From positions 1 through 39,140 of the forward strand of contig JAPKCC010000020.1 of NCBI GenBank assembly GCA_028823105.1: a DNA stretch of 39,140 nucleotides, written 5' to 3'. Below the pieces are notes generated by a model. The model was not told where the DNA came from. It ran no database searches and saw nothing but the letters and a program-made list of their open reading frames with translations. Shown piece after piece: positions 3,676-25,626 of this stretch. A program made the position numbers and the translations under genes. The DNA is from Phycisphaerales bacterium. Its GTDB lineage: Bacteria > Planctomycetota > Phycisphaerae > Phycisphaerales > SM1A02. Each line of letters starts with the position of its first letter. Position 1 is the stretch's first letter.

Positions 3676-3681
3676 TAGGCT
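3676..3681 (+). promoter_or_regulatory. Candidate -10 element of flippase (leaderless layout)
   Basis: TAGGCT lies 7 nt before the ATG at 3689 and no Shine-Dalgarno is visible. A -10 hexamer here would start the RNA at or next to the start codon. No convincing -35 is seen. It is supported mainly by recurrence of the same layout at other genes of the window. Confidence 0.35.
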
Positions 3682-3688
3682 GGCGATC

Positions 3689-4894
3689 ATGACCGTCTGG
3701 AGACAATCTGGTCTGGTCTGGCTTGGCGCGTTGATCGCGGCCGGTATGGCGTTGCTGACCCAGGTCCTCCTGGCCCGCCACTTCGACACCGAGCTCTTCG
3801 GCGCCATTTCCTACGCCTATGCGATCGCGATACTCGTCTCGACCTTCGGGTTTCAGGGCATCGGAGAAGTAGCCATCCGTCATCAAGGTCGGCTCGACCC
3901 CGCCCGGTGTCTGCGGGCCGCCGCAGCGCTCTTCACGCTCGGCCTCATCGGTGCGTTGGTCTGGATTCTGACCGTCGGAAGCCCGGACACGGAACCCGCG
4001 CTGCTGGCCCTCTTCCTTCCATTCGCCATCGTCCAGATCGGTCTGATCGCAGGGATGATTTCGTTTCAGATGGATCGAAACACAATTGGGATCGCCCTCT
4101 GGCCGGTCGGATTCCAAGGCACCCGTCTCTTGGTGGTGATCGGCATCGTCGTCGCGGGGGGCGCCGCGATCACCGTTCCGCTCGGTTGGACGATCGCCCT
4201 CGTGCCCGTCGCCATCTTCGGTCTTCGCCGGCTTGGCCGGACGGGTGACTGGCGAACCCGTGAGGATGGCGAGGCGAATTCTTCCATCACACGATCCGCA
4301 TTTCCTTTCTCCGCCACCCGACTGCTTGAATTCGCCGAGATTCAAATGCCGGTGGTGCTGGCCATGCCGCTGCTGGGAGCCGCGGAAACCGGTCGAATCG
4401 CCGCGTCCCTCGCGATCATCCAAGGGCTCCTGCTCCTCCCCATCGCCATCTTTCAGCGACTCCTCCGCCCGCGATTCCATGAATGGACCCGCGATGATCC
4501 GGGACGGCTTCGCCGAATCGCATTGATCGGTACCGGCTCGATGCTGGTAATCGGAGCAAGCCTCGGCCTCCTGACGCGGCCATTCTCTTCCGAGATTCTC
4601 GCCCTTCTCTTCGGCCCTGAATTCGCTGCGGCGGCGAGTTTCTTGGACCCCATTCTCCTCCTGCTTCCGATCTGGTTCGCGTCGATCGCCATCAATGCGA
4701 CGCTCGTCTCCCACCGGCTCGCCGACCTTCGCCTCGGTACCCAACTCGTCGGGGTGGCGATCCTTGTCATGACCCCGTTGGTCATGGGCCCTCAGATCGG
4801 GCCACACGGAATCATCTGGGGGATGATCGGTAGCCAGAGTTTCCTTCTCGTCTCCGGCATGACGCTGCTGTTGTTCAGCCGACCCAGAGACTGA
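3689..4894 (+). CDS. wzx: Wzx-like polysaccharide flippase (MATE/MOP superfamily)
   Basis: Predicted inner-membrane flippase moving lipid-linked oligosaccharide units to the periplasm. Seen: 401 aa with about 12 hydrophobic segments, the N-terminal pattern of polysaccharide-export MOP proteins (Ala/Leu-rich helix followed by LLARHFDTELFGAISYAYAIA), and a second symmetric half beginning near FPFSATRLLEFAEIQMP. There are no catalytic residues to check. It sits between sugar-nucleotide enzymes and an O-antigen ligase-family protein, as expected of Wzx. The stop is followed 51 nt later by the amidotransferase gene. The transported repeat unit cannot be read from the sequence. Confidence 0.75.
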   Translation: MTVWRQSGLVWLGALIAAGMALLTQVLLARHFDTELFGAISYAYAIAILVSTFGFQGIGEVAIRHQGRLDPARCLRAAAALFTLGLIGALVWILTVGSPDTEPALLALFLPFAIVQIGLIAGMISFQMDRNTIGIALWPVGFQGTRLLVVIGIVVAGGAAITVPLGWTIALVPVAIFGLRRLGRTGDWRTREDGEANSSITRSAFPFSATRLLEFAEIQMPVVLAMPLLGAAETGRIAASLAIIQGLLLLPIAIFQRLLRPRFHEWTRDDPGRLRRIALIGTGSMLVIGASLGLLTRPFSSEILALLFGPEFAAAASFLDPILLLLPIWFASIAINATLVSHRLADLRLGTQLVGVAILVMTPLVMGPQIGPHGIIWGMIGSQSFLLVSGMTLLLFSRPRD

Positions 4895-4912
4895 TGCCCC
4901 CCACTCGCCCGC

Positions 4913-4918
4913 TATAGT
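4913..4918 (+). promoter_or_regulatory. Candidate -10 element upstream of asnB-like gene
   Basis: TATAGT, 5/6 matches to TATAAT, in the 51-nt gap between flippase and amidotransferase. It would give a leader of roughly 20 nt. No good -35 is visible. This gene has a normal short leader rather than the 6-9 nt spacing seen at several other genes. Confidence 0.35.
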
Positions 4919-4945
4919 CAGGACCTCCCGTTCCGGTGCCACCTC

Positions 4946-6829
4946 ATGTGCGGATTCGCAGGCTTTATCGATCGACCGAATCGCTTCGCGGATCCCGCGA
5001 GCGTGATGGCGTCGATGAGCGAAGCGATCCGCCACCGCGGCCCCGATGGCGAGGGCCACTCCTTTGATGCGTCGAGGCGAATCGGCTTGGTGCATCGCCG
5101 GCTCGCGATCCAAGATCCGAGCGAAGCCGGGGCCCAGCCGATGCGCTCCACGAGTGGACGCTTCGAGATCGTCTACAACGGCGAGATCTACGACTTTCCC
5201 GAGAGGCGAGCCGACCTCGAGGCGGCCGGGCATCAATTCACGGGGAAGAGCGATACCGAAGTCCTGCTTGCGGGGTTCGAGACATGGGGCATCGAGGCCA
5301 CCCTCGGCCTCGTCGACGGCATGTTCGCATTCGCGGTGGTCGACCACGTCGAGGCCACGGTCACCCTCGCCCGTGACCGAGCAGGCCAGAAGCCGCTTCT
5401 GCTCGCGGTGTCCGGCGAGGCCATCGCCTTCGCCAGCGATCTTCGCGCCCTTGAGTCGCTCCCCGCACCGTTCGCCGATCGACTCGCCGGAATCAACGAT
5501 CACGCCCTCCATTGGTTTCTCGCGAATGGCACCGTTCCGTGGCCCCTCTCTATCCGGCCGGGCGTCGAGCAGGTCGCGCCGGGCGGACTCGTCGAGATCT
5601 CGGTGGCGAATGGACGAATCAACCGTCGCAAATGGTGGTCGCCCTCGATCCCGCAAAACGATTCGACGCCGGAGATCGCGGCGCCGTGCGGACACGACGA
5701 CGAGACCCTCGCCGCGATTCGTACCAGCGTGCACCGCCGATGCCGGTCGGATCGGGAGATCGGCGTCTTCCTGTCCGGAGGACTCGACTCACGGCTCATC
5801 GCGGCGCTCGCGGCGGAAACCCGTCCCGGCATCCCCGCGTTCACCCTCGCAATGCCCGGGGGACTCGACGAATCCGAGACCGCCGGCTCGATCGCGTCGG
5901 CACTCGGACTGCCCCACCGGATCATCCGCCCTGGCGAAGCCGAGGTGCTCGACACCGCCACCCGGATCGCGGAGATCGCCGACGAACCGTTCGCCGACTC
6001 CAGTCTCATCGCCGTGGCACTCCTCGCGCGACATGCTCGGAAAGAGATCGTCGTCGCGCTCGGCGGAGACGGCGGCGACGAACTCTTCGGCGGCTATCGT
6101 CGACATCGTGCCGCGGCGTCGAGTCTCGGGTCGCGTTCGTTGCTGCGATCCGTCAGGGCGGCGGCTCGTCTCGTCCCCGACGCGGTGCTCGACCGGATTC
6201 CGATGGGCCGCTCCACGCTCCGAGGTTCGGCAGACCTCTTTGCAGCCGCCCACGACGGATTCGAAGGGTATCTCCGACTCCGAGCGACCCAGGGCGACGC
6301 CGCGTCGCTTCTCGATCGACAGGTGCTTCGGTTCGACGGCCGATCACCGAGAAACCCCTGGGACGGGCTGACGCCCGAGTGGATCGGCGTCCGGAGCATG
6401 ATGGCCGCCGACTTCCGCGAGTATCTGCCGGACGATCCATTGGCCAAAATCGATCGTGGAACGATGGCGGTCGGGCTCGAAACCCGATCCCCGATGCTCG
6501 GCCGCGAGGTCATCGAGACGGCGAGCAGAATCCGAACATCGGACCTCTTCGATCGAGGTGGTGGAAGGCTACCGATCCGGAATGCTCTACAAACGCTCGG
6601 CCTCCCATCGACCTCGAAGAAAGCGGGATTCGCGGTTCCGCTTGCTCAGTGGCTTCGCGGTCCGCTTCGCGAATGGGCCACATCGTTGCTCCTCGAAGAT
6701 GCGAACGATCCGATCGACGCAGGGCTCGTCAAGTCCGATTGGACACGGCTGATGGATGGACGTGACACGGTGGCGACAAGGCTTTGGACCGTCACGTGTT
6801 GGCGAGCTTGGCTTCGGAGCCGATCCTGA
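4946..6829 (+). CDS. asnB: Glutamine-hydrolysing asparagine synthase-type amidotransferase
   Basis: Class-II glutamine amidotransferase fused to an ATP-pyrophosphatase synthase domain. Seen: Met-Cys at the N-terminus (Cys2 is the glutaminase nucleophile and fixes the start), HRRLAIQDP, YNGEIYD and KSDTEVLL in the glutaminase domain, the PP-loop SGGLDS (277-282), and LGGDGGDELFGGYRRH in the synthase domain. All key residues appear intact and 627 aa is normal. True AsnB makes asparagine from aspartate. In polysaccharide loci, homologues amidate sugar uronic acids or are otherwise dedicated to the glycan, and the WlbA/WlbB neighbours, which act on uronates, make a uronamide plausible here. Function in the glycan pathway is inference; housekeeping asparagine synthesis remains possible. 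Confidence 0.85.
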   Translation: MCGFAGFIDRPNRFADPASVMASMSEAIRHRGPDGEGHSFDASRRIGLVHRRLAIQDPSEAGAQPMRSTSGRFEIVYNGEIYDFPERRADLEAAGHQFTGKSDTEVLLAGFETWGIEATLGLVDGMFAFAVVDHVEATVTLARDRAGQKPLLLAVSGEAIAFASDLRALESLPAPFADRLAGINDHALHWFLANGTVPWPLSIRPGVEQVAPGGLVEISVANGRINRRKWWSPSIPQNDSTPEIAAPCGHDDETLAAIRTSVHRRCRSDREIGVFLSGGLDSRLIAALAAETRPGIPAFTLAMPGGLDESETAGSIASALGLPHRIIRPGEAEVLDTATRIAEIADEPFADSSLIAVALLARHARKEIVVALGGDGGDELFGGYRRHRAAASSLGSRSLLRSVRAAARLVPDAVLDRIPMGRSTLRGSADLFAAAHDGFEGYLRLRATQGDAASLLDRQVLRFDGRSPRNPWDGLTPEWIGVRSMMAADFREYLPDDPLAKIDRGTMAVGLETRSPMLGREVIETASRIRTSDLFDRGGGRLPIRNALQTLGLPSTSKKAGFAVPLAQWLRGPLREWATSLLLEDANDPIDAGLVKSDWTRLMDGRDTVATRLWTVTCWRAWLRSRS

Positions 6830-6855
6830 GTCGAACGCCTCACTCATCGAGGGCG

Positions 6856-6861
6856 TAAGAT
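6856..6861 (+). promoter_or_regulatory. Candidate -10 element of O-antigen ligase-family gene (leaderless layout)
   Basis: TAAGAT lies exactly 6 nt before the ATG at 6868, which would put +1 on the A of the start codon. No Shine-Dalgarno is present. The -35 region is weak. Confidence 0.4.
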
Positions 6862-6867
6862 CACCGC

Positions 6868-8142
6868 ATGTCCTCATGGTCGGACGATGCCGGGTCACTG
6901 TCAGAACTCGTCGAAGTCGATCGTTTTGGTGACCGCATCCACCTCTGGCTCGCGGCCGCGACCCTGATCACGCTTCCAATGAATGGGTGGATCGCGGGAC
7001 TCACCCTCGGGCCTCTATTCGCTTGGTCGTCGCTTCGCACGCTCTTCTGGCGGAAATATCTGCCCACCGGACCGGGCGAGGTCCTCTTCCCAGCAATTGC
7101 CTGGCTTGGGTTCCTGGCGATCAGTCTGACTTGGAGTCCAGACTTCAACGAGGGCTGGCATCAGTTGTGGAGCCAGCGATGGCTTCTTGTCGTGCCAATG
7201 CTCTGGCCGCTGATGGACCGATGGCGGCTGCTCCTCGTTTTTATTCTTCTGGGATGCCTCGCCGGGACGAGTTTGCAGACGGTTCAGGGCTTCCGCGAAT
7301 GGAGCGACCCTCAGAACGTCACGATCAGCGGTTTCAATAGCCATCCGAGGACCGTCGCAGTCTGGTCCGCCGGAGCGGTCGTGGGCGTCTTGGGCCTCTA
7401 CCTCGCAGGCACCCTCCGTCATTGGACCTGGTTGCTCGCGTGCATCCCACCGATCCTCGCGATCGTCCTGAGCGGCTCGCGCGGCGGGCTGCTCGCAGTC
7501 ATCATCGCCGTTCCCGCGACCCTCGGCATCATGCTTCTCACCGGGTTCACGTCGAAGAGACGACTCCTGGGCGTTCTTCTGGTGGCGGTGATCGGAGTTG
7601 CCGGTCTGTTGACGTTCCAGAATCGAATCCTTCCGCAGTTCCAAACGGCAGTCGCATCCGGCGTCGCCGTGATTGCGGACGAGCAGGCTTCCGACATTCG
7701 CATCGTCTGGTGGCGGTCGTGTCTCAGGCAATGGCGAAACCACCCTGTGACGGGGTACGGCCTCGGAGGAACCGCGACCGCGCTGGCGGCGGATCCGCTG
7801 CTCCTCCAAGATGACGGGCTCGATCGAAGCCACGAGGAGATTGCCGTCTTCAATCAACCCCATTCGGTGTACTTCCAGGTGTTGTTGGAGGGGGGCCTGG
7901 TTGGCGTACTGCTCCTGACCGTCCTCCTTGGGGCCGTCATCCGTGTCGGACTGCAGCGGGCTCGGTCGAGCCCCCTCGGTGCGATCGGCGTTGGGTGCGT
8001 CATCGTCTGGATGGTCACCGCCGCCTTCGACGCGTGGCACACCCAGCCGCAAACGCTCGCATTCCTCTGGATCGCCGCCCTCTTCTGTGCCTTCGATCCA
8101 ACCTGGACTTCGGCCGCGGACGAAGAACCCTTGGACGGATGA
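6868..8142 (+). CDS. O-antigen ligase / Wzy-family membrane protein
   Basis: Polytopic membrane protein of 424 aa with about 10-12 hydrophobic helices. The large periplasmic loop and Wzy_C-type signature are visible: GYGLGG followed by NQPHSVYFQVLLEGGLVG, where the conserved His precedes a glycine-rich helix. Families with this signature either polymerise O-units (Wzy) or ligate glycans to a lipid carrier or protein (WaaL/PglL-like). Both use undecaprenyl-diphosphate-linked sugars at the periplasmic face. Being the only such protein in a locus with a flippase, it could fill either role; sequence alone does not separate them. The N-terminal 20 residues are polar. Confidence 0.75.
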   Translation: MSSWSDDAGSLSELVEVDRFGDRIHLWLAAATLITLPMNGWIAGLTLGPLFAWSSLRTLFWRKYLPTGPGEVLFPAIAWLGFLAISLTWSPDFNEGWHQLWSQRWLLVVPMLWPLMDRWRLLLVFILLGCLAGTSLQTVQGFREWSDPQNVTISGFNSHPRTVAVWSAGAVVGVLGLYLAGTLRHWTWLLACIPPILAIVLSGSRGGLLAVIIAVPATLGIMLLTGFTSKRRLLGVLLVAVIGVAGLLTFQNRILPQFQTAVASGVAVIADEQASDIRIVWWRSCLRQWRNHPVTGYGLGGTATALAADPLLLQDDGLDRSHEEIAVFNQPHSVYFQVLLEGGLVGVLLLTVLLGAVIRVGLQRARSSPLGAIGVGCVIVWMVTAAFDAWHTQPQTLAFLWIAALFCAFDPTWTSAADEEPLDG

Positions 8143-8211
8143 ACCACGAGGTTTCGGTCCGCGTTGTCCAAGTCATCCGGCCGAATCGGTCGATGATCTG
8201 AGAGGACCACG

Positions 8212-9738: not shown

Positions 9739-9829
9739 ACCGAGCCCCTGAAGTTCACGCCCGCTCGTTTTCATCGTTTGCGTCCAAAAAACCACCCCGA
9801 TCGACCTCGAACGCCGATGATCCCAATCG

Positions 9830-11641: not shown

Positions 11642-11683
11642 CGAAGACCACTCGGCCTATCGGCATGCTTCCAGGGAGGACTT

Positions 11684-12319
11684 TCAACCCTTGCCCACGA
11701 GCCCCTGCACTTCGAGCATGGCGATGACGGCCGCGGCCGACTCCTCGACCGAACAGGTCGCGGTGTGGACGACGAGTTCCGGAGACTCTGGCGCTTCGTA
11801 CGGCTGATCGATCCCTGTGAAACCGCGGATCTCCCCCGCTCTTGCCTTCCGATAGAGCCCCTTGGGATCGCGAGATTCGGCCACTTCGAGAGGCACTTCG
11901 ACATAGACCTCGAAGAAAGGCATCGATGCGGATCGATGCATCGCGCGGACCTGATCCCGATCCGCCCTGAACGGGCTCACGAAACTCGCCAGAACGATGA
12001 TCCCCGCATCCACGAGTAGTCGGCAGACCTCACCGGTCCGCCGGATGTTCTCGGTTCGATCAGCCTCGCTGAATCCGAGATCGCCGTTCAATCCATGGCG
12101 AAGATTGTCCCCGTCCAATCGATAGCAGAGCCGGCCGGCCTCCGCGAGCACCCGCTCGACCTCGACCGCCACCGTGCTCTTCCCGCTTCCGGAAAGCCCG
12201 GTGAACCAGATGGTCCCGGCTTTCTGCCCGAGTTGGCGCTCTCGCGACGATCGGTCCACCGACCCGGAATGCCAGACGACGTTATCGCTCGTCGAAGAAT
12301 CTGAATGAGATTCGGCCAT
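11684..12319 (-). CDS. cysC: Adenylyl-sulfate kinase (stand-alone)
   Basis: ATP + APS to PAPS + ADP. All family motifs are canonical: P-loop GLSGSGKST (41-49), [28 protein letters not shown], and [21 protein letters not shown]. At 211 aa it is normal. The ATG at 12319 is chosen because AAAAGGAG (12327-12334) lies 7 nt upstream; an in-frame TTG at 12337 would sit upstream of that site. The gene faces away from cysD across a 95-nt divergent region and converges on the SLC13 permease. Because the CysN-fused kinase domain is diverged, this protein may be the main APS kinase. Confidence 0.93.
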
Positions 12320-12399
12320 TTTTTCGCTCCTTTTCAACTACCCGATCAACGGGTTCGATCTCACTGAAACTGCATCGGTCCATTCCTACTCCAGCCTGT

Positions 12400-12405
12400 T
12401 ACTCT
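12400..12405 (+). promoter_or_regulatory. Candidate -10 element of cysD (leaderless layout)
   Basis: TACTCT ends 9 nt before the cysD ATG at 12415. No Shine-Dalgarno is seen in the gap. It lies in the 95-nt divergent region shared with cysC, so both directions could be controlled together. Confidence 0.3.
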
Positions 12406-12414
12406 TCGGCTCCT

Positions 12415-13329
12415 ATGACTGTCGTCCGCGACCAACTCTCCCACCTGCAATCGCTTGAAGCGGAGTCAATTGACATCATCCGCGAGGTTGCGGCGAGCTT
12501 CCAGCGGCCCGTCATGATGTACTCGATCGGCAAGGATTCGAGCGTCATGCTCCATCTGGCCCGGAAGGCGTTCCATCCAGGCCCGATCCCCTTCCCGATG
12601 CTTCACGTGGATACCACTTGGAAGTTTCGTGAGATGATCGCTTTTCGAGATCGGACCGCGAAAGAGTTGGGCCTAGATCTCATCGTCCATTCGAATCCCG
12701 ACGGAGTCGCTCAGGGAATGAGCCCGTTCGTGCATGGCAGTCGGGTCTATACCGACGTGATGAAGACCCAGGCCCTCAAGCAGGCGCTCTCGGCGGGGCG
12801 ATTCGACTGCGCGATCGGCGGCGCCAGACGAGACGAAGAAAAAAGCCGGGCGAAGGAGCGGATTTTTAGTTTCCGCGACCGGAATCATCGATGGGATCCC
12901 AAGACCCAGCGTCCCGAACTCTGGAACCTCTGGAACACCCGGATCGGTCCGGGCGAGAGCGTGCGGTCTTTCCCCCTTTCAAACTGGACCGAACTCGACG
13001 TCTGGACCTATATCCACCTCGAGAAGATCGATGTCGTTCCGCTCTATCTCGCCGCGAAGCGTCCGGTCGTCGAACGGGACGGCGTCCTCATCATGGTGGA
13101 CGATGACCGGATCCCGCTGGAAGCCGGCGAAACCCCTGAGATGAAGAGCGTTCGATTCCGGACCCTCGGCTGCTACCCGCTTTCCGGCGCCGTGGAGAGC
13201 GAAGCCGCAACTCTGGCCGAAGTCATCACCGAGATGCTCGTCGCCCGGTCCAGCGAGCGACAGGGCCGGGTGATTGACCACGACGGCGACGGCAGCATGG
13301 AAGACAAGAAGAAAGAAGGGTATTTCTGA
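12415..13329 (+). CDS. cysD: Sulfate adenylyltransferase small subunit
   Basis: Catalytic subunit of the CysDN ATP sulfurylase, making APS from ATP and sulfate. Seen: PP-loop motif [12 protein letters not shown] near residues 35-46, [12 protein letters not shown], the conserved [20 protein letters not shown] stretch, and the C-terminal DDGDG..KKKEGYF-like end. At 304 aa it is full length. The stop TGA overlaps the ATG of cysNC by one base (TGATG), so the two are translationally coupled, as expected for obligate partners. Confidence 0.96.
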
Positions 13330-15257
13330 TGGACCCTCGCTTCGACGCCAACACCGAAACCATCGACGAGTACCTGCTCCGCCACGAGCGTAAGCAACTG
13401 CTTCGCTTCCTCACGTGTGGCAGCGTCGATGACGGAAAGAGCACGCTCATCGGCCGACTTCTGCACGACACCAAGGCGATCTACGAGGATCAACTTGCCG
13501 CCGTCGAAGGCGCGTCGAAGAAGTACGGGACTCAGGCCGGCCAGGCGGATCTCGCACTACTTGTCGATGGCCTCCGCAGCGAACGCGAACAGGGCATCAC
13601 GATCGACGTCGCATATCGATACTTCTCGACGGAGCATCGGAAGTTCATCGTCGCCGACACGCCCGGACACGAGCAATACACCCGAAACATGGCGACCGGT
13701 GCCAGCACCTGCGATCTTGCGGTTCTTCTGGTGGATGCCCGGCATGGCGTGAGCGTCCAGACCCGACGGCACTGCGTGATCACGTCGCTTCTGGGAATTC
13801 CCAAGATCATCGTCGCCATCAACAAGATGGACATCGTCGACTGGGACCAATCCGTCTACGATCGGATCAAAGCCGACTTCGAAGCATTCTCCGAAAAACT
13901 TCCGAGCCGGGAACAGGTCTTCGTGCCGATGTCTGCACTCCACGGAGACTACGTCGCCGAGGGTTCCGAGAAAGCGCCTTGGTACGACGGACCCTGCCTG
14001 CTCGAGCTTCTGGAAACGATGGACATCGGAAGCAATGAGCAAGACACGCCGTTCAGACTTCCGGTGAATCACGTCATCCGACCGGACCTTGATTTTCGTG
14101 GATTCGGCGGACGGATCGAATCCGGCATCGTCCGGCCCGGCGACCGTGTCACCGTGCTCCCCGCGGGAACCGAGAGCACCGTCTCCCGGATATCGACGTT
14201 TGATGGCGATCTTGAAATAGCGGGCGCTCCAAGAAGCGTCGCGATCGTGCTTGACGACGAGATCGATGCCAGCCGAGGCGACATGATCGTCGCCCTCAAG
14301 GATCAACCGACGGTGGCCGATCGAGTCACCGCCGATCTGGTCTGGATGCATGAAGACCCACTTCAACCCGGACGGGAGTTCATTCTCCGCCACGGAACGA
14401 GAGTCACGCCCTGTCGAGTCCGGCGAATCGCTCATCGCCTCGACATCGACACGCTCGAGACGGTGCCCTGCGACGGGCTTGGCTTGAACGAGATCGGACG
14501 CGTCGAGCTCGAGACCGATGTCCCCCTCGTCTTCGATCCGTACGAACGTGTTCGAGGCACTGGAAGCCTGATTCTGATCGATCGGATCGGAAACTGGACC
14601 ATGGCGGCCGGGATGATTCGAGGAAAATCCTCCGATCTTCGCTGGACCGCAGCCCCGCTCTCCGGAGCCGATCGGCACGGCGACGAAGGACTGGTCACGC
14701 TGGAGGAACGCGAGAAGCGATTCGGGCAGAAGCCTGCCACGATCTTGCTGACCGGACTCGCTGGAAGTGGCAAGACCCGGATCGCCCTGATGCTCGAGCG
14801 AGCCCTGTTCGACCTTGGGCGGGTCGCCATTCGCTTCGACGGAACCACCATGCGGCAGGGATTGAACCGAGACCTCGGTTTCTCCGCCGAAGACAGATCC
14901 GAGAATCTTCGCCGCGCCATGGAGACCGCGAAGCTCGTGAACGATGAAGGCATCATCTGTGTGGCGGCATTCGTGGCGCCTCGTTCGACGACACGGGAGA
15001 AGGCCGCAGACCTGGTTGGGCCCGACCGCTTCCTCGTCGTCCATTGCAACGCCCCCTTGGAGCACTGCCGGTCACTGGACCCGACAGGGCTCTACGCCGA
15101 TGCTGAGGCCCGATCCCTCGAGGGCATCCCTGGCATCTCGTTCGACTACGAGACGCCCGAGAATCCGGATCTGAGCCTCCCCAGCCATCAGATCGATCCC
15201 GAGGAGAGCGTGAACCGAATCCTCGCTCTGATGAACGAGCGAGGCTTCCTTCGTTGA
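13329..15257 (+). CDS. cysN: CysN GTPase fused to an APS-kinase-like domain (CysNC)
   Basis: Large GTPase subunit of ATP sulfurylase, residues about 1-440, with G1 GSVDDGKST (31-39), DTPGHEQY and NKMD. After a linker, an APS-kinase-like domain starts with P-loop GLAGSGKT (476-483). In that domain the usual DGDNxRxGLN is DGTTMRQGLN, the SPFRxDR motif is APRSTTREK, and the KGLYxKARAG lid is TGLYADAEARS. Several substrate-binding residues of canonical APS kinases are therefore changed, although the overall length (642 aa) matches bifunctional CysNC. It may be a weak or inactive kinase complemented by the stand-alone CysC at 11684-12319. GTPase function is near certain; kinase activity is doubtful. 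Confidence 0.92.
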   Translation: MDPRFDANTETIDEYLLRHERKQLLRFLTCGSVDDGKSTLIGRLLHDTKAIYEDQLAAVEGASKKYGTQAGQADLALLVDGLRSEREQGITIDVAYRYFSTEHRKFIVADTPGHEQYTRNMATGASTCDLAVLLVDARHGVSVQTRRHCVITSLLGIPKIIVAINKMDIVDWDQSVYDRIKADFEAFSEKLPSREQVFVPMSALHGDYVAEGSEKAPWYDGPCLLELLETMDIGSNEQDTPFRLPVNHVIRPDLDFRGFGGRIESGIVRPGDRVTVLPAGTESTVSRISTFDGDLEIAGAPRSVAIVLDDEIDASRGDMIVALKDQPTVADRVTADLVWMHEDPLQPGREFILRHGTRVTPCRVRRIAHRLDIDTLETVPCDGLGLNEIGRVELETDVPLVFDPYERVRGTGSLILIDRIGNWTMAAGMIRGKSSDLRWTAAPLSGADRHGDEGLVTLEEREKRFGQKPATILLTGLAGSGKTRIALMLERALFDLGRVAIRFDGTTMRQGLNRDLGFSAEDRSENLRRAMETAKLVNDEGIICVAAFVAPRSTTREKAADLVGPDRFLVVHCNAPLEHCRSLDPTGLYADAEARSLEGIPGISFDYETPENPDLSLPSHQIDPEESVNRILALMNERGFLR

Positions 15258-15333: not shown

Positions 15334-15339
15334 TATCAT
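15334..15339 (+). promoter_or_regulatory. Candidate -10 element of GH57 gene (leaderless layout)
   Basis: TATCAT lies 8 nt before the ATG at 15348; no Shine-Dalgarno is visible. A TTCGAT-like -35 at 15309 would give a 19-nt spacer and is weak. Confidence 0.4.
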
Positions 15340-15347: not shown

Positions 15348-16583
15348 ATGGCATCCGTCTGCTTCTATTTTCAGGTTCATCAGCCCTTCCGACTTCGCCG
15401 GTACTCCGTCTTCGATACGGACCCGTTTTACTTCGACGAGACGTCGAACAGCGAAATCATGCAGAAGGTCGCAGACAAGTGCTACCGCCCGGCCACTGCG
15501 AAAATCCTCGACCTCGTGAAACGACACGAGGGCCGATTCCGCGTGAGCTATGCGATCAGCGGGACCTGTCTCGAGCAATTCGAGAAATGGGCCCCAGACG
15601 TGATCGACCTGTTCAAGGAACTGGCCGATACCGGTGCCTGCGAATTCATCGGTGAGACCAGCCATCATTCGCCGAGCTTTCTCTTCAGCCGGGACGAATT
15701 CGATCACCAGGTGGATACGCATCGGGACAAGATCAAGGAGCTCTTCGGCCAGACGCCGACGATCTTCCGGAACACCGAGTTGATGTACCACGATGATCTC
15801 GCCTGGCACATCGCAAAACGTGGCGAACATCGCGCCATCCTCTGCGAGGGCGTCGATCGTCTCCTGAAGTTCCGCTCGCCGAACTACTGCTACGTCCCCC
15901 CCCGCTTCGAGGGCCAGCCGGAAGCACTGAACGAGCGACCGGTCAAACTGCTGCTGAAGAACTATCGACTCTCGGACGACGTTGCGTTCCGCTTCGGCAA
16001 TCGCGACTGGAAGGAGTATCCGCTGAGCGCCGAGAAGTTCGCCAAGTGGGTGAACGACATCAATGGCGACGGGTATTGCTGCAATCTCTTCATGGACTAC
16101 GAGACGATCGGCGAGCACCAGTGGGCCGACACGGGAATCTTCGAGTTCCTCGATGCGCTGCCGGAGAAAATCTACGACGTCAATCCGGGCGAGAATGACT
16201 TCCTGACGCCTTCCCAGGTCCTTGATACATACAGTCCGCCAGTTGGTGAGTATGCCGCCCCGGAGTGGGTGAGTTGGGCGGATACCGAACGCGATCTCTC
16301 GGCGTGGCTTGGGAACCCGTTGCAGGACAACGCGGTCGAAGAACTCTACGCCATCCGCGATGCCGTCTACGCGAGGAACGAGAACCCTCGAAACGAGAGC
16401 GACGAACATGTCCTCGAGGACTGGCGGAAGCTCACCACGAGCGACCACCTCTACTACATGTGCACCAAGTACTGGTCGGACGGGGACGTCCACAAGTACT
16501 TCAGCCCATACGACAGCCCGTACGACGCGTACATCAACTTCATGAACGTTCTCGACAACGTTAAGCAACGGGTTGAAGACTGA
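15348..16583 (+). CDS. Glycoside hydrolase family 57 alpha-glucan enzyme
   Basis: Retaining alpha-glucan-active enzyme, likely cytosolic since no signal peptide is present, acting on glycogen or maltodextrin. The conserved GH57 regions are visible in order: VHQP (residues 10-13), GETSHH (102-107), RNTEL with the predicted nucleophile E144, and FMDYETIGEHQW with predicted acid/base D250. At 411 aa it is the short single-domain form often annotated as alpha-amylase; 4-alpha-glucanotransferase or branching activity cannot be excluded. It is transcribed alone and converges with the next gene. The region after the acid/base Asp is unusually acidic and aromatic. Confidence 0.88.
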   Translation: MASVCFYFQVHQPFRLRRYSVFDTDPFYFDETSNSEIMQKVADKCYRPATAKILDLVKRHEGRFRVSYAISGTCLEQFEKWAPDVIDLFKELADTGACEFIGETSHHSPSFLFSRDEFDHQVDTHRDKIKELFGQTPTIFRNTELMYHDDLAWHIAKRGEHRAILCEGVDRLLKFRSPNYCYVPPRFEGQPEALNERPVKLLLKNYRLSDDVAFRFGNRDWKEYPLSAEKFAKWVNDINGDGYCCNLFMDYETIGEHQWADTGIFEFLDALPEKIYDVNPGENDFLTPSQVLDTYSPPVGEYAAPEWVSWADTERDLSAWLGNPLQDNAVEELYAIRDAVYARNENPRNESDEHVLEDWRKLTTSDHLYYMCTKYWSDGDVHKYFSPYDSPYDAYINFMNVLDNVKQRVED

Positions 16584-19421: not shown

Positions 19422-19429
19422 CAATGGGC

Positions 19430-19435
19430 AGTGTA
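19430..19435 (-). promoter_or_regulatory. Candidate -10 element of TPR-like gene (leaderless layout)
   Basis: On the minus strand TACACT ends 8 nt before the ATG at 19421 (5 nt before the adjacent TTG). No Shine-Dalgarno is visible in the gap. Confidence 0.35.
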
Positions 19436-19601
19436 TCCAACCGACTGGCTTCTCCGTTGACGCTCACGCTGTAAGTGCGGTACCGTCCCTTGTTCCGAAC
19501 CACGGTCCCGTTCCGATGGTTCGATCTCAGACTGACGCCGAATCAATTTGGTGCCAGAACGACCCACCCTTCCGCTCCGGCGGAATGAGACCGGAATTCC
19601 G

Positions 19602-20624: not shown

Positions 20625-20667
20625 TCACCGCCCGCCCGGTCAGACGCCTGGCCAGCCCGATTCGGCA

Positions 20668-20673
20668 TACTGT
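20668..20673 (+). promoter_or_regulatory. Candidate -10 element of oppA-like gene (leaderless layout)
   Basis: TACTGT ends 9 nt before the ATG at 20683; the overlapping CATACT (20666-20671) is an alternative with an 11-nt gap. No Shine-Dalgarno is visible. Confidence 0.3.
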
Positions 20674-20682
20674 TCCGTCAGC

Positions 20683-22590
20683 ATGCTGAAGATTCTCCTT
20701 CCGATACTGATTCTCGCCGGCCTCATCGGCCTCGTCGTCTCTCTCGATGATGAGCGTCCACGAGCGGATGTGGTTCTGGTTCATGGAACCGACCTCTTCA
20801 CGCTGGACCCCCAGAAGATGAGTTACCTGCACGATCTCCGGGCGTCGCGCGCGATCTACGAAACGCTGGCGACAATCAGGCCGGACGGGTCGGTGGGCCC
20901 CGCGGCCGCAGAGTCCTGGGAGATCTCCGAAGACGGCACCCGGTATGTCTTCCACCTGCGGGACGGACTGAAGTTCAGCAACGGCGATCCGGTGACCGCC
21001 GAGGACTTCAAATACGCCTGGCGAAGAGCCATCCTCCCGGATACCGCCGCAACCTATTCGAGCCTGTTCATGGACATCGCGGGAGCCGAAGCGTTCTTTG
21101 AGTGGAGGTCCGATCTCCTCGCGCTTCGAACCGATCCGGATCTTCGCGATGAAATGGTCGCCGACGGCGCCTTCTCGCCGGTCGATGCTGATGCGATTCT
21201 GGCCGAGGACGAGAAGGCCTCTCACCGGAGAACGCTCGAACGCTTCGATGCGATGGTGGGAATCGATGCCATCGACGATCGAACCCTAGTGGTCGACCTT
21301 GAACGCCCACTCCTTTACTTCCTCGACCTCGCGGCGTTCGGGACATTCAGCCCCGTCCATCGTCCGACGCTCGAAGCGGCCACCACGCTCGAACCGGATT
21401 CAGGCCGTATCAAGGAGGATCGTGGTTGGACCAAACCCGGCCGTCTCGTCGGCAACGGCCCCTTCGAGTTGACCAGATGGCGCTACCAGCGTGATTGCCG
21501 CTTCGAGCGGAACTCGCACTATTGGAATACCGCCAACGTCCCGTCCGACAGCATTGAAGCCATCGTGATCGAAGATCCCAACACCGCGATCATGGCCTTC
21601 GAGGCCGGCGAAGCCGACTGGCTTCCCGACGTCCTTGCGGACTTCCGGGCCGACATGATCGAACAACGAATCGCCTACGAGACCAGACATCGAACGGCGA
21701 TCGATGCGGCGATTGAGACCGGCCGTGAGATCGACGAGATTCTGGCATCGCTCCCGGCTCCGTCATCTGGAGAACGCCGGAACATTCATAGCGTCGACGC
21801 CTTCGGGACCGATTTCTTCCATGTGAACTGCCGGGAGCTCTTGGCCAACGGCGATCGGAATCCCTTCGCCGATCCGCGGGTGCGCCGCGCCATCGCACTG
21901 ACCATCGACAAGCAGGCGCTGGTCGAACGAGTCACCAGACTCAACGAACGCACCAGTGGTTCCTTCGTCCCCGCCGGGAGCATTCCCGGTTACCAGCCAC
22001 CGGCCGGACTCCCCTTCGACCCCGAACGCGGGCGCGCCCAACTCGACGCCGCCGGCTGGAAACTCGCCAGCGATGGTGTTCGACGAAATGCCGACGGCGA
22101 GCCGTTCCCCACCCTCGAGATCCTCTTCTCGACCGGGAGTCCCCGATACAAGGATCTTTCGCTGGCCTTGCGGGACATGTGGAGGCGCGAACTTGGGATC
22201 CCCTGCGAGATCGGTGGAAGACCAGGTAACGAATATCGCGCTCAACTAGAGAATGGAAACTTCATGGTCGCCAGAGGGGGCTGGTACGGCGACTACGGAG
22301 ATCCGACCACGTTCCTTGATCTCAACCGGACCGACGATGGAAATAACCATCGGGGGTATTCCAACCCAGCCTATGACGACCTGCTCGAGCGGGCGGCCAT
22401 CGAACCCGACCCCGAACGCCGCATGCGACTCCTCGAGGAGGCCGAGGTGATCTTGGTCGAGCAAGATCTCCCCATCCTTCCGATCTGCACCTACGTCACG
22501 CTCTACATGTACGAGCCCGGACGGCTGACCGGTCTGACCAAGCATCCTCGCCTTGACCAGAATCCCGCTCGATGGGCGATTCGTCCCTGA
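20683..22590 (+). CDS. oppA: Oligopeptide ABC transporter substrate-binding protein (SBP family 5)
   Basis: Extracytoplasmic solute receptor for peptides or related molecules, 635 aa. It begins with a single hydrophobic helix (ILLPILILAGLIGLVV) and no lipobox Cys, so it looks membrane-tethered rather than lipidated. Family-5 features include TLDPQKMSYLHD, AESWEISEDGTRYVFHLRDG, SNGDPVTAEDFKYAWRR, DPRVRRAIALTIDK, RGGWYGDYGDP and the C-terminal LPILPICTYV. A charged insertion of about 50 residues (around 140-195) follows the TYSSLFMDIAGAE region. The permease OppB is two genes downstream with a UbiA-like gene between. No OppC, OppD or OppF is in the window. Confidence 0.9.
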   Translation: MLKILLPILILAGLIGLVVSLDDERPRADVVLVHGTDLFTLDPQKMSYLHDLRASRAIYETLATIRPDGSVGPAAAESWEISEDGTRYVFHLRDGLKFSNGDPVTAEDFKYAWRRAILPDTAATYSSLFMDIAGAEAFFEWRSDLLALRTDPDLRDEMVADGAFSPVDADAILAEDEKASHRRTLERFDAMVGIDAIDDRTLVVDLERPLLYFLDLAAFGTFSPVHRPTLEAATTLEPDSGRIKEDRGWTKPGRLVGNGPFELTRWRYQRDCRFERNSHYWNTANVPSDSIEAIVIEDPNTAIMAFEAGEADWLPDVLADFRADMIEQRIAYETRHRTAIDAAIETGREIDEILASLPAPSSGERRNIHSVDAFGTDFFHVNCRELLANGDRNPFADPRVRRAIALTIDKQALVERVTRLNERTSGSFVPAGSIPGYQPPAGLPFDPERGRAQLDAAGWKLASDGVRRNADGEPFPTLEILFSTGSPRYKDLSLALRDMWRRELGIPCEIGGRPGNEYRAQLENGNFMVARGGWYGDYGDPTTFLDLNRTDDGNNHRGYSNPAYDDLLERAAIEPDPERRMRLLEEAEVILVEQDLPILPICTYVTLYMYEPGRLTGLTKHPRLDQNPARWAIRP

Positions 22591-22598
22591 AGCGTTCG

Positions 22599-22629
22599 GT
22601 CATCCCCCGGCCGTTCGAGCCGGAATGAC
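22599..22629 (+). terminator. Two-part hairpin after oppA-like gene
   Basis: GTCAT (22599-22603) pairs with ATGAC (22625-22629), and inside it CCGGC (22607-22611) pairs with GCCGG (22619-22623) around a 7-nt loop. It begins 9 nt after the oppA stop. No T-tract follows; it may be a weak terminator or an mRNA 3'-end stabiliser. Confidence 0.4.
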
Positions 22630-22664
22630 AGGCAATGTCCCGACCGGCCCGATCACGACCGGAG

Positions 22665-22670
22665 TACCGT
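22665..22670 (+). promoter_or_regulatory. Candidate -10 element of UbiA-like gene (decides the start)
   Basis: TACCGT followed by exactly 6 nt and then ATG at 22677. This favours the ATG at 22677 over the in-frame ATG at 22635, which has no upstream signal and would lie upstream of this promoter. Confidence 0.35.
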
Positions 22671-22676
22671 CCAAAG

Positions 22677-23603
22677 ATGCCTCCGGAATCCGAACGCACA
22701 CCCGGTCATCCCGAATTGAAGTTGCCGCGGTCCTTGGTCTCAGATTTCATCCTGATCCAGATTCCGATGGCGGCCAGCGCCGCCGCCCTGCTCTTCGCGG
22801 TTTCTCGACTCCTCGATCGCCCCCTCGATGCGGCGTGGTACGTCGCCGCGTTCCTGGGAACCTGGTGTGTCTACCTCCGCGATTCCGCCGCATCGTGCGA
22901 TGCCGAGGATCGAATCAGCCAGCCTCGACGAGCCGCGAAGTTTCGATCGAGCCGCCTTCTCAGGACCGGGCTTCCGATCCTGAGCGCGGTACTGGGCATC
23001 ACCGTCCTCTTCTGGATCCGACCGGAGCGACTCACCCTCGCATTGCTGCTCTTCGTCGCCATCCTGGGGCTCCTGCACGCGATACCGTTCGGCGGTGCCC
23101 GCGGCGCCGGGCGAACCCGTGTTGATTTCAAGCGACTCGCGGTGGTCAAGTCTCCCCTCGTCTCGATCGCTTGGGCCGGTGCGGCAGTCGCGCTTCCACT
23201 TCTCGAAGGAAGAGGCGAATCCAGCACCGCCAACGACTGGATCATCGGCATGTGGCTCGCTGGTCTCTTGATGCCGCTTCTCCTCGCGGATTCCCTTCTG
23301 TTGGACATCCGGGATCTCGAAGCCGATCGAGCGTTCAACCTGCACACCATCGCCGTCCGCGCAGGTTCGAACCGCGTCCATCTGCTCGTGGGGAGTCTCA
23401 TCGCCGTCTCAATCGTGGTGGCCTTTCTGGCCACGACCCAAATCAGCGCACCTCCAGACTGGATGAGCGACAGTCTGACCGCTGGCATCGGCCTTGGTCT
23501 CGGCTGGGCGTGCTGGCCGTGGCTTCGCCGCCGGGAAGCCGCAATCTCCATGTCGATGATGGCCTGGCGATTCCTGCTGCTGATCCCGGTCACGCTCGGC
23601 TGA
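22677..23603 (+). CDS. UbiA-like membrane prenyltransferase homologue, diverged
   Basis: Polytopic membrane protein of 308 aa with about eight hydrophobic segments, resembling the UbiA superfamily. The second Asp-rich motif is clear (LDIRDLEADRAFNLHTIAVRAG, given here in part as DIRDLEADR). The first motif position reads YLRDSAASCDAEDR, which keeps acidic residues but not the standard NDxxDxxxD spacing. UbiA enzymes join isoprenyl diphosphates to quinone, haem, chlorin or lipid acceptors; the substrate here is unknown and the altered first motif leaves activity uncertain. It sits between oppA and oppB in the same direction. An upstream ATG (22635) would add 14 arginine- and proline-rich residues and is less likely. 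Confidence 0.7.
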   Translation: MPPESERTPGHPELKLPRSLVSDFILIQIPMAASAAALLFAVSRLLDRPLDAAWYVAAFLGTWCVYLRDSAASCDAEDRISQPRRAAKFRSSRLLRTGLPILSAVLGITVLFWIRPERLTLALLLFVAILGLLHAIPFGGARGAGRTRVDFKRLAVVKSPLVSIAWAGAAVALPLLEGRGESSTANDWIIGMWLAGLLMPLLLADSLLLDIRDLEADRAFNLHTIAVRAGSNRVHLLVGSLIAVSIVVAFLATTQISAPPDWMSDSLTAGIGLGLGWACWPWLRRREAAISMSMMAWRFLLLIPVTLG

Positions 23604-23645
23604 CGCTTCATGAAGGAGCGATTCCGGCTTTGGATCGTCACGAGG

Positions 23646-23651
23646 TAGAAT
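23646..23651 (+). promoter_or_regulatory. Candidate -10 element of oppB-like gene (leaderless layout)
   Basis: TAGAAT lies exactly 6 nt before the ATG at 23658. An AAGGAG-like string occurs at 23613-23617 but is more than 40 nt from the start codon, too far to be a ribosome-binding site. The 10-bp palindrome CTTCATGAAG (23606-23615) lies upstream. Confidence 0.4.
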
Positions 23652-23657
23652 CTCGCC

Positions 23658-24608
23658 ATGCTTGGCCTCATCGCTCGGCGGTTGATCCAACTGCCGGTGA
23701 TCATCTTCGTCGTCTACACCGTCACGTTCGTGCTCGCCTGGCTCGTCCCCGGGAATCCCCTCGAATCCCCGGACGGCCGACGCCCTGACCAGGCCGTGGT
23801 TGACGCGATGCTGGCGCAGTACAAACTGGATGATCCCGTCGCGTTCTACTTCGACTATCTCGGTAAGGCAACGGGGATCTCATACGTCTTTGGCGATGCG
23901 CCTTACCCGTTCGACCTTGGCCCCAGCCTCAGCCATTCGGACTGGACGGTGAACGAGATCCTCGCCGCCGGGCTCCCGGCCTCGATCTCTCTCGGCCTCG
24001 CGGCGATCCTCATCGCTTTGGTCCTTGGGCTCCTCGCCGGAGTGATTGGAGGCTTGAAACCGAACACGCCCCTGGATGCTGGGACGCAGGTGCTCGCCGT
24101 GGTCGGGATATCGCTACCGACCTTCGTGATCGGCGCGATCCTGCTCATCCTTTTTGCGGTGAAGTTGCGCCTATTCCCCATCGGCGGCTGGGGCGATCTC
24201 CAACACCTGGTGCTTCCTGCCTTCGCGCTCTCGCTTCCCTTCGCCGCCTATATCGCGCGGCTCACCAGGTTCGGAATGATCGACGAGATGCGGAAGGACT
24301 ACATCAGGACCGCACGGGCCAAAGGGCTGCCGGAGCATCGGGTCGCGCTCGGCCACGCCCTCCGGAATGCGTTCCTTCCGGTGCTCAGCTACCTCGGACC
24401 CGCGACCGCCATCGCGATGACCGGCTCGTTCGTCGTCGAAAAAGTGTTCGCCGTGCCGGGCATCGGTCGTAACTTCGTAGACGCCGTCATGGCGAAGGAC
24501 ATCACCCTGATCATGGGCGTGGTCCTCGTCTATTCGACTTTGCTGGTGCTGTTCAACCTGATCGTCGACGTGCTCTACAGTTGGATCGACCCGCGAATCT
24601 CACTCTGA
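23658..24608 (+). CDS. oppB: Oligopeptide/dipeptide ABC transporter permease (OppB/DppB type)
   Basis: Inner-membrane permease of 316 aa with six hydrophobic helices. The N-terminus (RRLIQLPVIIFVVYTVTFVL) and LVPGNPLE are typical of OppB/DppB, and the cytoplasmic EAA loop reads YIRTARAKGLPEHRVALGHA, the site that docks the ATPase. FVVEKVFAVPGIG and the C-terminal SWIDPRISL are also family features. The partner permease OppC and the ATPases are absent: the next gene is on the opposite strand 15 nt away. It must use subunits encoded elsewhere. Confidence 0.92.
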   Translation: MLGLIARRLIQLPVIIFVVYTVTFVLAWLVPGNPLESPDGRRPDQAVVDAMLAQYKLDDPVAFYFDYLGKATGISYVFGDAPYPFDLGPSLSHSDWTVNEILAAGLPASISLGLAAILIALVLGLLAGVIGGLKPNTPLDAGTQVLAVVGISLPTFVIGAILLILFAVKLRLFPIGGWGDLQHLVLPAFALSLPFAAYIARLTRFGMIDEMRKDYIRTARAKGLPEHRVALGHALRNAFLPVLSYLGPATAIAMTGSFVVEKVFAVPGIGRNFVDAVMAKDITLIMGVVLVYSTLLVLFNLIVDVLYSWIDPRISL

Positions 24609-24623
24609 CTCCGCCGCCCGGAC

Positions 24624-25310
24624 TCAGGCGGGGGCAAGTGATTCCTGAACCTCCGCAAGTAATCGACGCTCCATCGATTCGTCACGGCCGACCGGCGTCC
24701 AAAGACCGGAACTCCGAGTGGTTCCGTCATCCGGCGGAATGGTCTCCAGCGGATTGGTGCTGTAAGAACGGCCGATGCGGCTCCAAGCACTGCGGCGAGC
24801 CCCCGCTCGATGCGCCCGCTCGACGTAGACCCAGACCCGAACTTCGACCGGCCCCTCGAAGGTGGTGAGATCCGTCAAACGCATCTCGCCCTCGAGCGAT
24901 CCGGGCAGTGGCGCGCCCACGAGTTCTTCGTCGCCATCCGGTTCTGGCGGGATGAAGTCAACGGGGAGGAATTCGAATCTCACTCGACGACGCTGCTTGT
25001 GGAGTGTGTTCTCGCCCCACTGTTGAAGACTCGAATTGTCGACTCGCCAGGGCTCGATCACGCTGCCAGCGATACGGGGCCTTCCTTCGATGACGCCGCC
25101 GACCCGATCCGACACCAACGGTGGCATTCCAGCCTTGCGGGCCGCCTGGCCGGCGGCGTCGAACGCATCGTCGTATTGACCGGATTGGAGTTCGAGTCGG
25201 TCTGGCCCCTTCGCAGTGCATCCAACGCCCAACCCGGGCAGGAGCAAGGCGGACAGGAGGGCCGGGAAGAGGCAGCGAAATTTGATAGGGGCAGAGGGTC
25301 CTGAGGGCAT
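24624..25310 (-). CDS. Predicted lipoprotein, unknown function
   Basis: Unrecognised 228-aa protein. The N-terminus has a hydrophobic stretch FPALLSALLLPGLGVG ending at Cys31, a probable lipobox (LGVGC), so the mature protein would be lipid-anchored. The mature part begins with a helical segment (DDAFDAAGQAARKAGMP), followed by a beta-rich, Arg-rich core (RRRVRFEFLP, PVEVRVWVYVERAHRAG). No catalytic motif is evident. The gene converges on oppB with 15 nt between stops and is divergent from the cytochrome at 25627. The lipobox has Leu at -4 rather than -3, so lipidation is likely but not certain. Confidence 0.75.
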   Translation of the reverse strand: MPSGPSAPIKFRCLFPALLSALLLPGLGVGCTAKGPDRLELQSGQYDDAFDAAGQAARKAGMPPLVSDRVGGVIEGRPRIAGSVIEPWRVDNSSLQQWGENTLHKQRRRVRFEFLPVDFIPPEPDGDEELVGAPLPGSLEGEMRLTDLTTFEGPVEVRVWVYVERAHRAGARRSAWSRIGRSYSTNPLETIPPDDGTTRSSGLWTPVGRDESMERRLLAEVQESLAPA

Positions 25311-25626
25311 GTTGTGAAGATTATCGCACCTCCGACGACTCCGGGGGAGATTGAAACTATCCGCTTCAGACGCAACTCAGACCCGATCTTCTGCGAACTG
25401 ACCTCTTGGTAGAACCAATCCCCTTTCTCGAACGTCAAACAACTGGACCAAGCAGTTCGATTCTCCGGGTAGAAAAAGATTATCGGTTCCATATTTCGCG
25501 CCTCCACCTTGACCCGGAAGCCCTTTGTAATACCCTCTTCAGGGGGTATTTCGACCCAACCTGCCGTGGCCACGCAGGCTCAGATCCAGTCGCGAGCATG
25601 ATCCCCCCAACGGTGATTCAGATCCC
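25311..25626. other. 316-bp divergent intergenic region with an inverted repeat
   Basis: This A+T-richer gap separates the lipoprotein (minus) and cytochrome (plus) genes. It holds the lipoprotein -10 candidate and a 7-bp inverted repeat, AATACCC (25529-25535) and GGGTATT (25544-25550), separated by 8 nt. A shorter repeat TTGGT-AGA-ACCAA lies at 25406-25418. I find no convincing sigma-70 promoter for the cytochrome: TTGACC at 25509 is followed by TAATAC after only 13 nt. A minus-strand frame of about 85 codons crosses the gap but enters the lipoprotein gene out of frame and is not called. Confidence 0.5.
25318..25325 (-). promoter_or_regulatory. Candidate -10 element of lipoprotein gene (leaderless layout)
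   Basis: On the minus strand GATAAT (5/6 to TATAAT) ends 9 nt before the ATG at 25310, and the overlapping TAATCT ends 7 nt before it. No Shine-Dalgarno is visible. Confidence 0.4.

Follow-up and report, generated by a model that had tools for sequence, protein, structure and literature searches.

The 39,140-nt window analysed here, i.e. the whole stretch of contig JAPKCC010000020.1 (assembly GCA_028823105.1) from a Phycisphaerales bacterium (SM1A02), raises the question of why a TANNNT hexamer stands just before the start codons of nine of its genes, and whether these hexamers are promoter elements of mRNAs that begin at the start codon. The first-pass annotation had assigned each of the nine a position and a spacing, and all (9/9) were located, at the exact gaps before ATG (the gap being the number of nucleotides between hexamer and start codon). 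The ATGs open reading frames of 228–930 aa. The predicted elements are as follows.

3676..3681, plus strand: predicted -10 element TAGGCT, gap 7 to ATG 3689; flippase-like product, weak Polysacc_synt match
6856..6861, plus strand: predicted -10 element TAAGAT, gap 6 to ATG 6868; Wzy_C O-antigen ligase domain
12400..12405, plus strand: predicted -10 element TACTCT, gap 9 to ATG 12415; CysD, sulfate adenylyltransferase small subunit
15334..15339, plus strand: predicted -10 element TATCAT, gap 8 to ATG 15348; GH57 family
19430..19435, minus strand: predicted -10 element TACACT, gap 8 to ATG 19421; 930-aa protein, weak TPR matches
20668..20673, plus strand: predicted -10 element TACTGT, gap 9 to ATG 20683; solute-binding protein, SBP_bac_5
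22665..22670, plus strand: predicted -10 element TACCGT, gap 6 to ATG 22677; weak UbiA match
23646..23651, plus strand: predicted -10 element TAGAAT, gap 6 to ATG 23658; binding-protein-dependent transporter permease
25318..25323, minus strand: predicted -10 element TAATCT, gap 7 to ATG 25310; 228-aa protein, no Pfam match

The nine genes had been described as devoid of a Shine-Dalgarno (SD) sequence, and no good SD was found in front of any of them; ATG 23658 has a GAGG 12 nt before the start, upstream of the hexamer. The chance rate of 0.008 per position adopted at first proved too high, and the excess over chance itself stands: TANNNT occurs at a frequency of 0.0012 per base on both window strands (95 in 78,280) and, at gaps 16–53 ahead of starts in other parts of the genome, at a background of 0.38% per position. 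Against this background, nine boxes among 26 starts lie far beyond chance (p ~1e-10); the value is post hoc, the pattern having been picked inside the window. Boxes are denser in the window than in the rest of the sampled genome (9/26 versus 42/370, p = 0.0016), perhaps because the starts in the window were set with the signal in view; a gene finder blind to the signal called 28 window genes and disagreed with two of the nine starts (22677 and 19421).

The independent test was confined to sampled stretches outside the window (the genome sample, window included, covers 17.6% of 3.35 Mb), with starts called signal-blind, from coding statistics only, and with starts having <60 nt of upstream sequence excluded from position profiles. 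Outside the window, TANNNT was present at gap 6–9 of 42/370 starts versus 5.6 expected (p = 7e-23) and was the top-ranked gapped 3-mer among those tested, above SD words, whereas only 11 of 2,879 internal ATGs carry it. The first-pass annotation had foreseen, for the genome, that TANNNT would peak at -12 to -15 and be anticorrelated with SD; both points were borne out when tested on this 17.6% sample, the SD figures being those of the pooled genus sample (below). A chance pattern recognized post hoc among few starts, which the choice by eye in a single window might suggest, is refuted by these independent stretches and is barely credible. In a count over the whole genome that uses no start calls, TANNNT occurs 253 times at gap 6 versus 94 times at gap 15, a displaced position that preserves the codon phase. 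The reversed pattern as the sole control at gap 6 is uninformative for this genome (253 versus 240), and the gap 15 control was therefore used.

The distance to the start codon has a sharp lower edge: with signal-blind starts, gaps 3–5 are empty (0, 0, and 0) and gap 6 is occupied at 20 of 397 starts, whereas, if every gene is begun at its leftmost candidate start, gaps 3–5 are occupied (2, 1, and 2 of 390). A housekeeping sigma-70 -10 element so placed would have RNA polymerase begin the transcript at the start codon's A or no more than about 3 bases ahead of it. At gap 6, +1 would fall on the A of the ATG and a closer box would truncate the codon; gaps 7–9 would allow leaders of 1–3 nt. The empty gaps and the onset at gap 6 are expected of such messages because the transcript must retain the whole ATG. 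It is also conceivable that the boxes are real -10 elements whose adjacent ATG is not translated, either because +1 lies inside the codon and translation begins at a start further downstream, or because the box is a secondary promoter beside a leadered main transcript. Starts called from coding statistics only, and the several boxes at gap 9, where +1 could precede the codon, leave some room for this; the abrupt onset at gap 6 speaks against it, as do the start codon and SD preferences of the same genes and the behaviour of the start codon in orthologs (both below), and we regard it as unlikely.

In the pooled genus sample, SD sequences occur in 6/89 box carriers versus 241/675 other starts (p = 2e-9), and ATG is the start codon of 84/89 box carriers versus 554/675 others. 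The remaining five box starts are GTG, unlike in mycobacterial leaderless genes, in which GTG is commoner. A same-strand gene lies ≤25 nt upstream of 2/84 box genes, 66/228 SD genes, and 59/396 of the remainder; judged by the 2/84, a measure of sequence spacing rather than of mapped units, box genes would mostly be first in their transcription unit. An origin of TA(A/G) in the stop codon of the upstream gene was considered for the own-genome set and rejected as a general explanation, as 1 of 24 same-strand upstream neighbours lies <20 nt away. The anti-SD tail pattern had no match in this genome, whose 16S contig stops short of the 3' tail; 11 of 21 genomes, counting this one among the 21, had the tail. 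The genome as a whole mixes starts with a strict box (~11–17%), SD-led starts, and many starts with neither.

A purely translational role of TANNNT, as an A/U-rich S1-type signal or an unstructured standby site with no promoter activity, would have to be reconciled with the rarity of carriers as the second gene of a tight pair, a position that would need a translational signal no less, and with the specificity of the three bases T1, A2, and T6, enriched 7.5-fold versus 2.6-fold for the next triple of the same form. Pribnow and S1 signals have been described as inseparable in non-SD genes (Nakagawa 2017, PMC5397173), which lends this explanation some footing; we consider it very improbable all the same. 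By their position, exclusivity, conservation, and gene context, the TANNNT boxes are very probably sigma-70 -10 elements of leaderless or near-leaderless mRNAs, without an evident -35. Since a core promoter box lies directly before the start codon, we infer that the messages very probably begin there, and they would be translated by recognition of the 5'-terminal AUG rather than by SD pairing.

The genome had been called planctomycete-like from its sequence, in keeping with its nearest named relatives, which are Phycisphaerales MAGs. Comparison with relatives yielded 92 ortholog pairs, of which 79 were used and 13, having no start codon at the aligned place, were omitted; none of the 13 is from a box-carrying gene. 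The box is retained in 27/28 pairs (9 genes; 24 of the 28 pairs derive from five window genes) and is present in 0/51 pairs whose window-genome member has no box, a pattern that again disfavours chance. T1, A2, and T6 are identical in 27, 26, and 27 of the 28 pairs versus 16–20/28 for the six bases after the hexamer, and the start codon adjoining the box is present in 28/28, which together with the absence of box genes from the omitted pairs argues against an unused ATG. Bases 20–21 upstream of the hexamer are also highly identical (26 and 23 of 28 pairs).

Among individual genes, all same-genus orthologs (7/7) of the ATG 3689 gene have a gap-7 box that reads TAGGCT or TACCCT; the box of CysD (12415) is retained in 3/3 relatives (at gap 10 in one), and that of ATG 20683 in 5/6 close relatives, the exception (L045) reading TCGTGT. 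In all six close relatives (L044–L049), ATG 23658 is preceded by TAGAAT or TAGACT at gap 6, a box seldom found in remoter relatives, and ATG 25310 (minus strand) by TAATCT or TAGGCT at gap 7. For the GH57 gene (15348), TANNNT is found at gap 6–9 in 21/23 relatives among the matches listed and in 0/19 homologs sampled phylum-wide. Homologs of the ATG 6868 gene were sought for box conservation and none aligned at the N-terminus. The box of ATG 19421 (minus strand) is retained in 3/3 relatives, all of which have the in-frame ATG and lack the TTG 19424, 3 bases upstream. The box of ATG 22677 is retained in 4/4 relatives sharing the N-terminus. The preference of the first-pass annotation for 22677 over 22635 as the start of this gene is borne out by the same relatives, in which GGAGTACCGT and ATG 22677 are present in 4/4 and a start codon at the 22635 site in 0/4. 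The pooled loci L044–L123, in which 172/882 starts have a box, all surround one gene; they are for that reason non-independent and were kept out of the main evidence.

A TTGACA-like -35 (at least 4/6 matches, spacers 15–19) was found at 14/89 box starts versus 19/89 for the shifted box; in the relatives' loci, the figures for at least 4/6 matches were 25/172 versus 18/172. None was evident among enriched 4- and 5-mers either, TTGACA not exceeding the shifted or no-box controls, and the case for a promoter therefore depends on the -10. Weak composition biases at -20 and -23, seen in 47 sequences, no longer reached the listing limit once 89 were used. A G at -2 of the hexamer, the extended -10 position, is present in 47/89 box starts versus 25% of 858 internal TANNNT; the promoters would thus be ones without an evident -35, many of them with this G. 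The genome appears to have an ordinary housekeeping sigma factor fit to read a standard -10: its RpoD scores above the cut-off of the RpoD_Cterm model (361 versus 354 bits) and below those of several full-length RpoD models, and in the alignment its region-2 stretch, the part that contacts the -10, is almost identical to that of E. coli RpoD.

The procedure recovered the signal in the positive control, D. radiodurans (Deinococcus) MP1 (12/110 versus 2.3 expected, mode at gap 6), and gave 1/144 versus 3.2 expected in the negative control, Sinorhizobium pSymB. In a start-free count, the signal was present in 45 of 118 Planctomycetota genomes and 19 of 55 families; the reversed-pattern control of these whole-genome counts gave |z| > 4 in 0/118, which likewise opposes a chance origin. 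In gene samples, G007 (same genus) had 7/125 versus 1.8 expected, and G018 and G087 (same order) also used gap 5 (5 cases versus 7 at gap 6). Small samples from the class and phylum gave 12/82 (1.4 expected) for G085 and G126, 2/42 (0.9) for G038, 3/40 (2.6) for G119 and G127, 2/37 (5.2) for G060, 0/18 (0.1) for G039, and 0/25 (0.5) for G032 and G121; further small samples gave 6/63 (7.2) for G109 and 2/53 (2.5) for G037. Whole-genome counts show a strong excess in G039 (354 versus 73) and G121 (131 versus 20), and a zero in a small sample is therefore no proof of an absent signal.

A mixture of SD and leaderless starts with a TANNNT -10 in a high-G+C genome was reportedly described in Mycobacterium and Streptomyces by Cortes and colleagues in 2013, and the present genome shares the high G+C content, the TANNNT box, and the coexistence of SD and (here predicted) leaderless starts. 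In Deinococcus-Thermus, as described by Zhong et al. 2025 (PMC12340547), bases 1, 2, and 6 of TANNNT are nearly invariant, the motif lies ~6–7 bp before the ORF as a -10 without a -35, and a second gene class with GGAG exists beside the -10-motif class. The start-adjacent TANNNT without a -35 and the SD-type class alongside it are common to both systems, whereas the ~30% of ORFs reported for Deinococcota (PMC12340547) contrasts with ~11–17% of starts here, the same pipeline giving 11% for MP1; the phylum here is Planctomycetota, and promoter function is predicted from sequence, unlike in PMC12340547. TANNNT ~12 bp upstream of the start also served as the signal for calling leaderless genes in Zheng et al. 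2011 (PMC3160421), and the box found here, ~12 nt upstream of the start, resembles that TA-like signal. The main text of PMC3160421 has no mention of Planctomycetes, whose possible place in it is 'Other Bacteria' in Table 2. Leaderless initiation had been noted at the outset as established in Actinobacteria and Deinococcus-Thermus, which is correct; it is not confined to them, as leaderless genes have been predicted in many bacterial phyla (PMC3160421 and PMC9581028), and the planctomycete case is therefore notable but not new in kind.

The mechanism is thus one known from other phyla, and the understanding of leaderless gene expression is unchanged; what appears to be new is the sequence statistics for an instance in a group with hardly any description. 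For this little-studied group, TANNNT offers a signal by which starts and promoters may be located, with the preference for 22677 over 22635 as a worked case, and relatives are pointed out as candidates for leaderless-translation tests. The patchy distribution within one phylum may open the gain and loss of leaderless expression to comparison. We give even chances to the broader proposal that leaderless expression from -35-less -10 elements, often with the extended G, is both native to and common in much of Planctomycetota, having been gained or lost repeatedly; if so, many planctomycete starts and promoters would be mis-modelled in databases.

The window lies in a 3.35-Mb genome of 194 contigs, as contig C107. 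All nine TANNNT hexamers that the first-pass annotation had read as -10 boxes of leaderless genes are present at the positions it assigned, ahead of the start codons at 3689, 6868, 12415, 15348, 19421 (minus strand), 20683, 22677, 23658 and 25310 (minus strand). Its estimate of 0.008 for the chance occurrence of TANNNT, based on base composition, was too high; the hexamer was counted at 0.0012 per base on both strands of the window, a scarcity that suggests either that stray -10 boxes are selected against or that TA is avoided in general.

Starts were called over 588,435 bases in 41 stretches (17.6% of the genome) using a gene finder written for this analysis, which relies on coding statistics and is blind to start signals, and the gap between hexamer and start codon was profiled for the 397 starts having 60 nt upstream. 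TANNNT counts were 0, 2, 1, 0, 0, and 0 at gaps 0–5; 20, 12, 9, and 8 at gaps 6–9; 3, 2, and 2 at gaps 10–12; and zero at gaps 13–15. Gene-internal ATGs carried the hexamer at gaps 6–9 in 11 of 2,879 cases. When the window was excluded, TANNNT preceded 42 of 370 starts at gaps 6–9 against 5.6 expected from positions farther upstream (p = 7e-23), and the genome-wide peak anticipated by the first-pass annotation is thus found in this 17.6% sample. Of the gapped 3-mers examined, each with three of its six bases fixed and beginning 12–15 nt ahead of the codon, TANNNT ranked first, again with the window excluded, followed by the Shine-Dalgarno (SD) words GGA and GNAG. Where no possible start preceded the first ATG and the finder chose that ATG, 23 of 137 starts had the box. 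The peak persisted when the leftmost possible start of each gene was used (22 at gap 6), yet gaps 3–5 then contained 2, 1, and 2 of 390.

Boxes are conserved among relatives. In 27 of 28 ortholog pairs in which the gene of this genome has a box, the relative also has one, at gap 6–10 (nine genes: five window genes with 24 pairs, and four in L040, another stretch of the genome, with one pair each), whereas a box was found in the relative in 0 of 51 pairs (37 genes) lacking one here. Within the 28 pairs, T1, A2, and T6 are identical in 27, 26, and 27, respectively, the three middle bases in 24, and the six bases after the hexamer in 16–20. Bases 20–21 upstream of the hexamer are also unusually conserved (26/28 and 23/28 pairs; nine genes), though without an enriched -35 consensus. 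The box of 3689 is located at gap 7 in 7/7 same-genus orthologs, and the GH57 gene at 15348 has TANNNT at gaps 6–9 in 21 of 23 relatives among the matches listed, with varying surrounding bases. None of the 19 homologs taken from the phylum as a whole has the GH57 box, indicating that single sites turn over. The start at 22677, preferred over 22635 in the first-pass annotation, is favoured here as well, because box and ATG are kept in four relatives, none of which has a start codon where 22635 lies here. Among the homologs sought for 6868, none was comparable at the start. The best named relatives of the solute-binding protein at 20683 are Phycisphaerales MAGs, four at 90–92% protein identity.

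In the pooled genes of this genome and two others of its genus, SD sequences occur in 6 of 89 box carriers and 241 of 675 others (p = 2e-9), the anticorrelation that the leaderless proposal had predicted, and 84/89 carriers start with ATG compared with 554/675 others (p = 0.002). A close same-strand gene lies upstream of 2/84 carriers versus 66/228 SD genes (p = 2e-8), and of 59/396 genes with neither box nor SD. SD avoidance, ATG use, and few close upstream genes are, as sequence features, marks of a putative promoter that would make transcripts begin right at the codon. The most telling detail for such a promoter is the onset at exactly 6 nt: six bases separate the last T of a -10 element from +1, so that a nearer box would cut the ATG. 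Two genomes of the same order (G018 and G087) also use gap 5 (5 cases versus 7 at gap 6), and the onset therefore shifts by one base among genomes. Whereas the position of the box, its exclusivity with SD, its conservation, gene context, and spread are shown by the sequences, we infer that the A of the ATG serves as +1; ribosomes would then start on a bare 5' AUG.

Position 3 of the hexamer is biased toward C, and position 5 toward A or C. A G two bases upstream, the G of an extended -10, is present in 47/89 carriers versus 25% of 858 gene-internal TANNNT (p = 2e-8), and no -35 element is enriched upstream of the boxes. The genome encodes an ordinary RpoD, whose region-2 stretch aligns almost unchanged with that of Escherichia coli RpoD, and a second, weaker match to sigma-70 region 1.2; sigma-70 would be the factor that reads the box. 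The 16S rRNA gene (5760–7063 of L004, another stretch of the genome) stops at the contig end, short of the anti-Shine-Dalgarno tail.

Run on controls, the same pipeline detected the box at 12/110 starts in D. radiodurans MP1 (2.3 expected; mode at gap 6) and at 1/144 on S. meliloti pSymB (3.2 expected). The two same-genus genomes gave 33/242 (G006; 4.1 expected) and just 7/125 (G007; 1.8 expected), and G018 and G087 together gave 12/129 (2.4 expected). No box excess was found in G109 of the same class (6/63; 7.2 expected) or G037 of the same phylum (2/53; 2.5 expected). In a gene-call-free comparison of TANNNT-N6-ATG with TANNNT-N15-ATG over whole genomes at equal codon phase, this genome contained 253 and 94 copies, respectively. 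The N6 excess is patchily distributed across 118 Planctomycetota genomes (this one included): z exceeds 4 in 45 of them and in 19 of 55 families, and is below -4 in none. The reversed pattern gave |z| > 4 in 0/118 (largest among the rows listed, 3.0 in G013). The strongest N6/N15 ratios occur outside the class of this genome, in families f45, f30, f28, and f22, and a significant excess is absent in four same-class genomes (G060, G109, G119, and G127; z = 0.9, -1.0, 2.2, and 1.2, respectively). In A+T-rich genomes, a background in the thousands lowers the power, so that a missing signal does not prove absence there. G077 alone approaches a significant deficit (234 at gap 6 versus 327 at gap 15; z = -3.9).

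In the window, CysD (12415) has a start-adjacent -10, and the next gene, a CysN/CysC fusion (13329), begins on a TGATG overlapping the CysD stop; this region (12415–15257) probably comprises a leaderless first gene and a coupled second one. Exopolysaccharide-type genes, some recognized from weak matches only, occupy 1766–8142, with start-adjacent -10 boxes at two of the four named:
1766, nucleotide-sugar dehydratase-like gene
3689, flippase-like gene
4946, asparagine-synthase-like amidotransferase gene
6868, Wzy-like gene

The box signal is the same as the TANNNT-before-start signal with which Zheng et al. (2011) identified leaderless genes in many listed phyla; the main text does not name Planctomycetes (PMC3160421). 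The StartLink paper (PMC9581028) likewise has leaderless genes predicted in many bacterial phyla, beyond Actinobacteria and Deinococcus-Thermus. In Deinococcus, Zhong et al. (2025) reported that bases 1, 2, and 6 of the motif are irreplaceable and that it works as a -10 (PMC12340547), and Nakagawa et al. (2017) described species, one planctomycete among them, with a bias of the leaderless and/or S1 type (PMC5397173). No planctomycete start-site map was found among the literature matches listed, whose coverage excludes most subscription journals. The kind of system is thus already known, and the present genome is a new, well-supported member.
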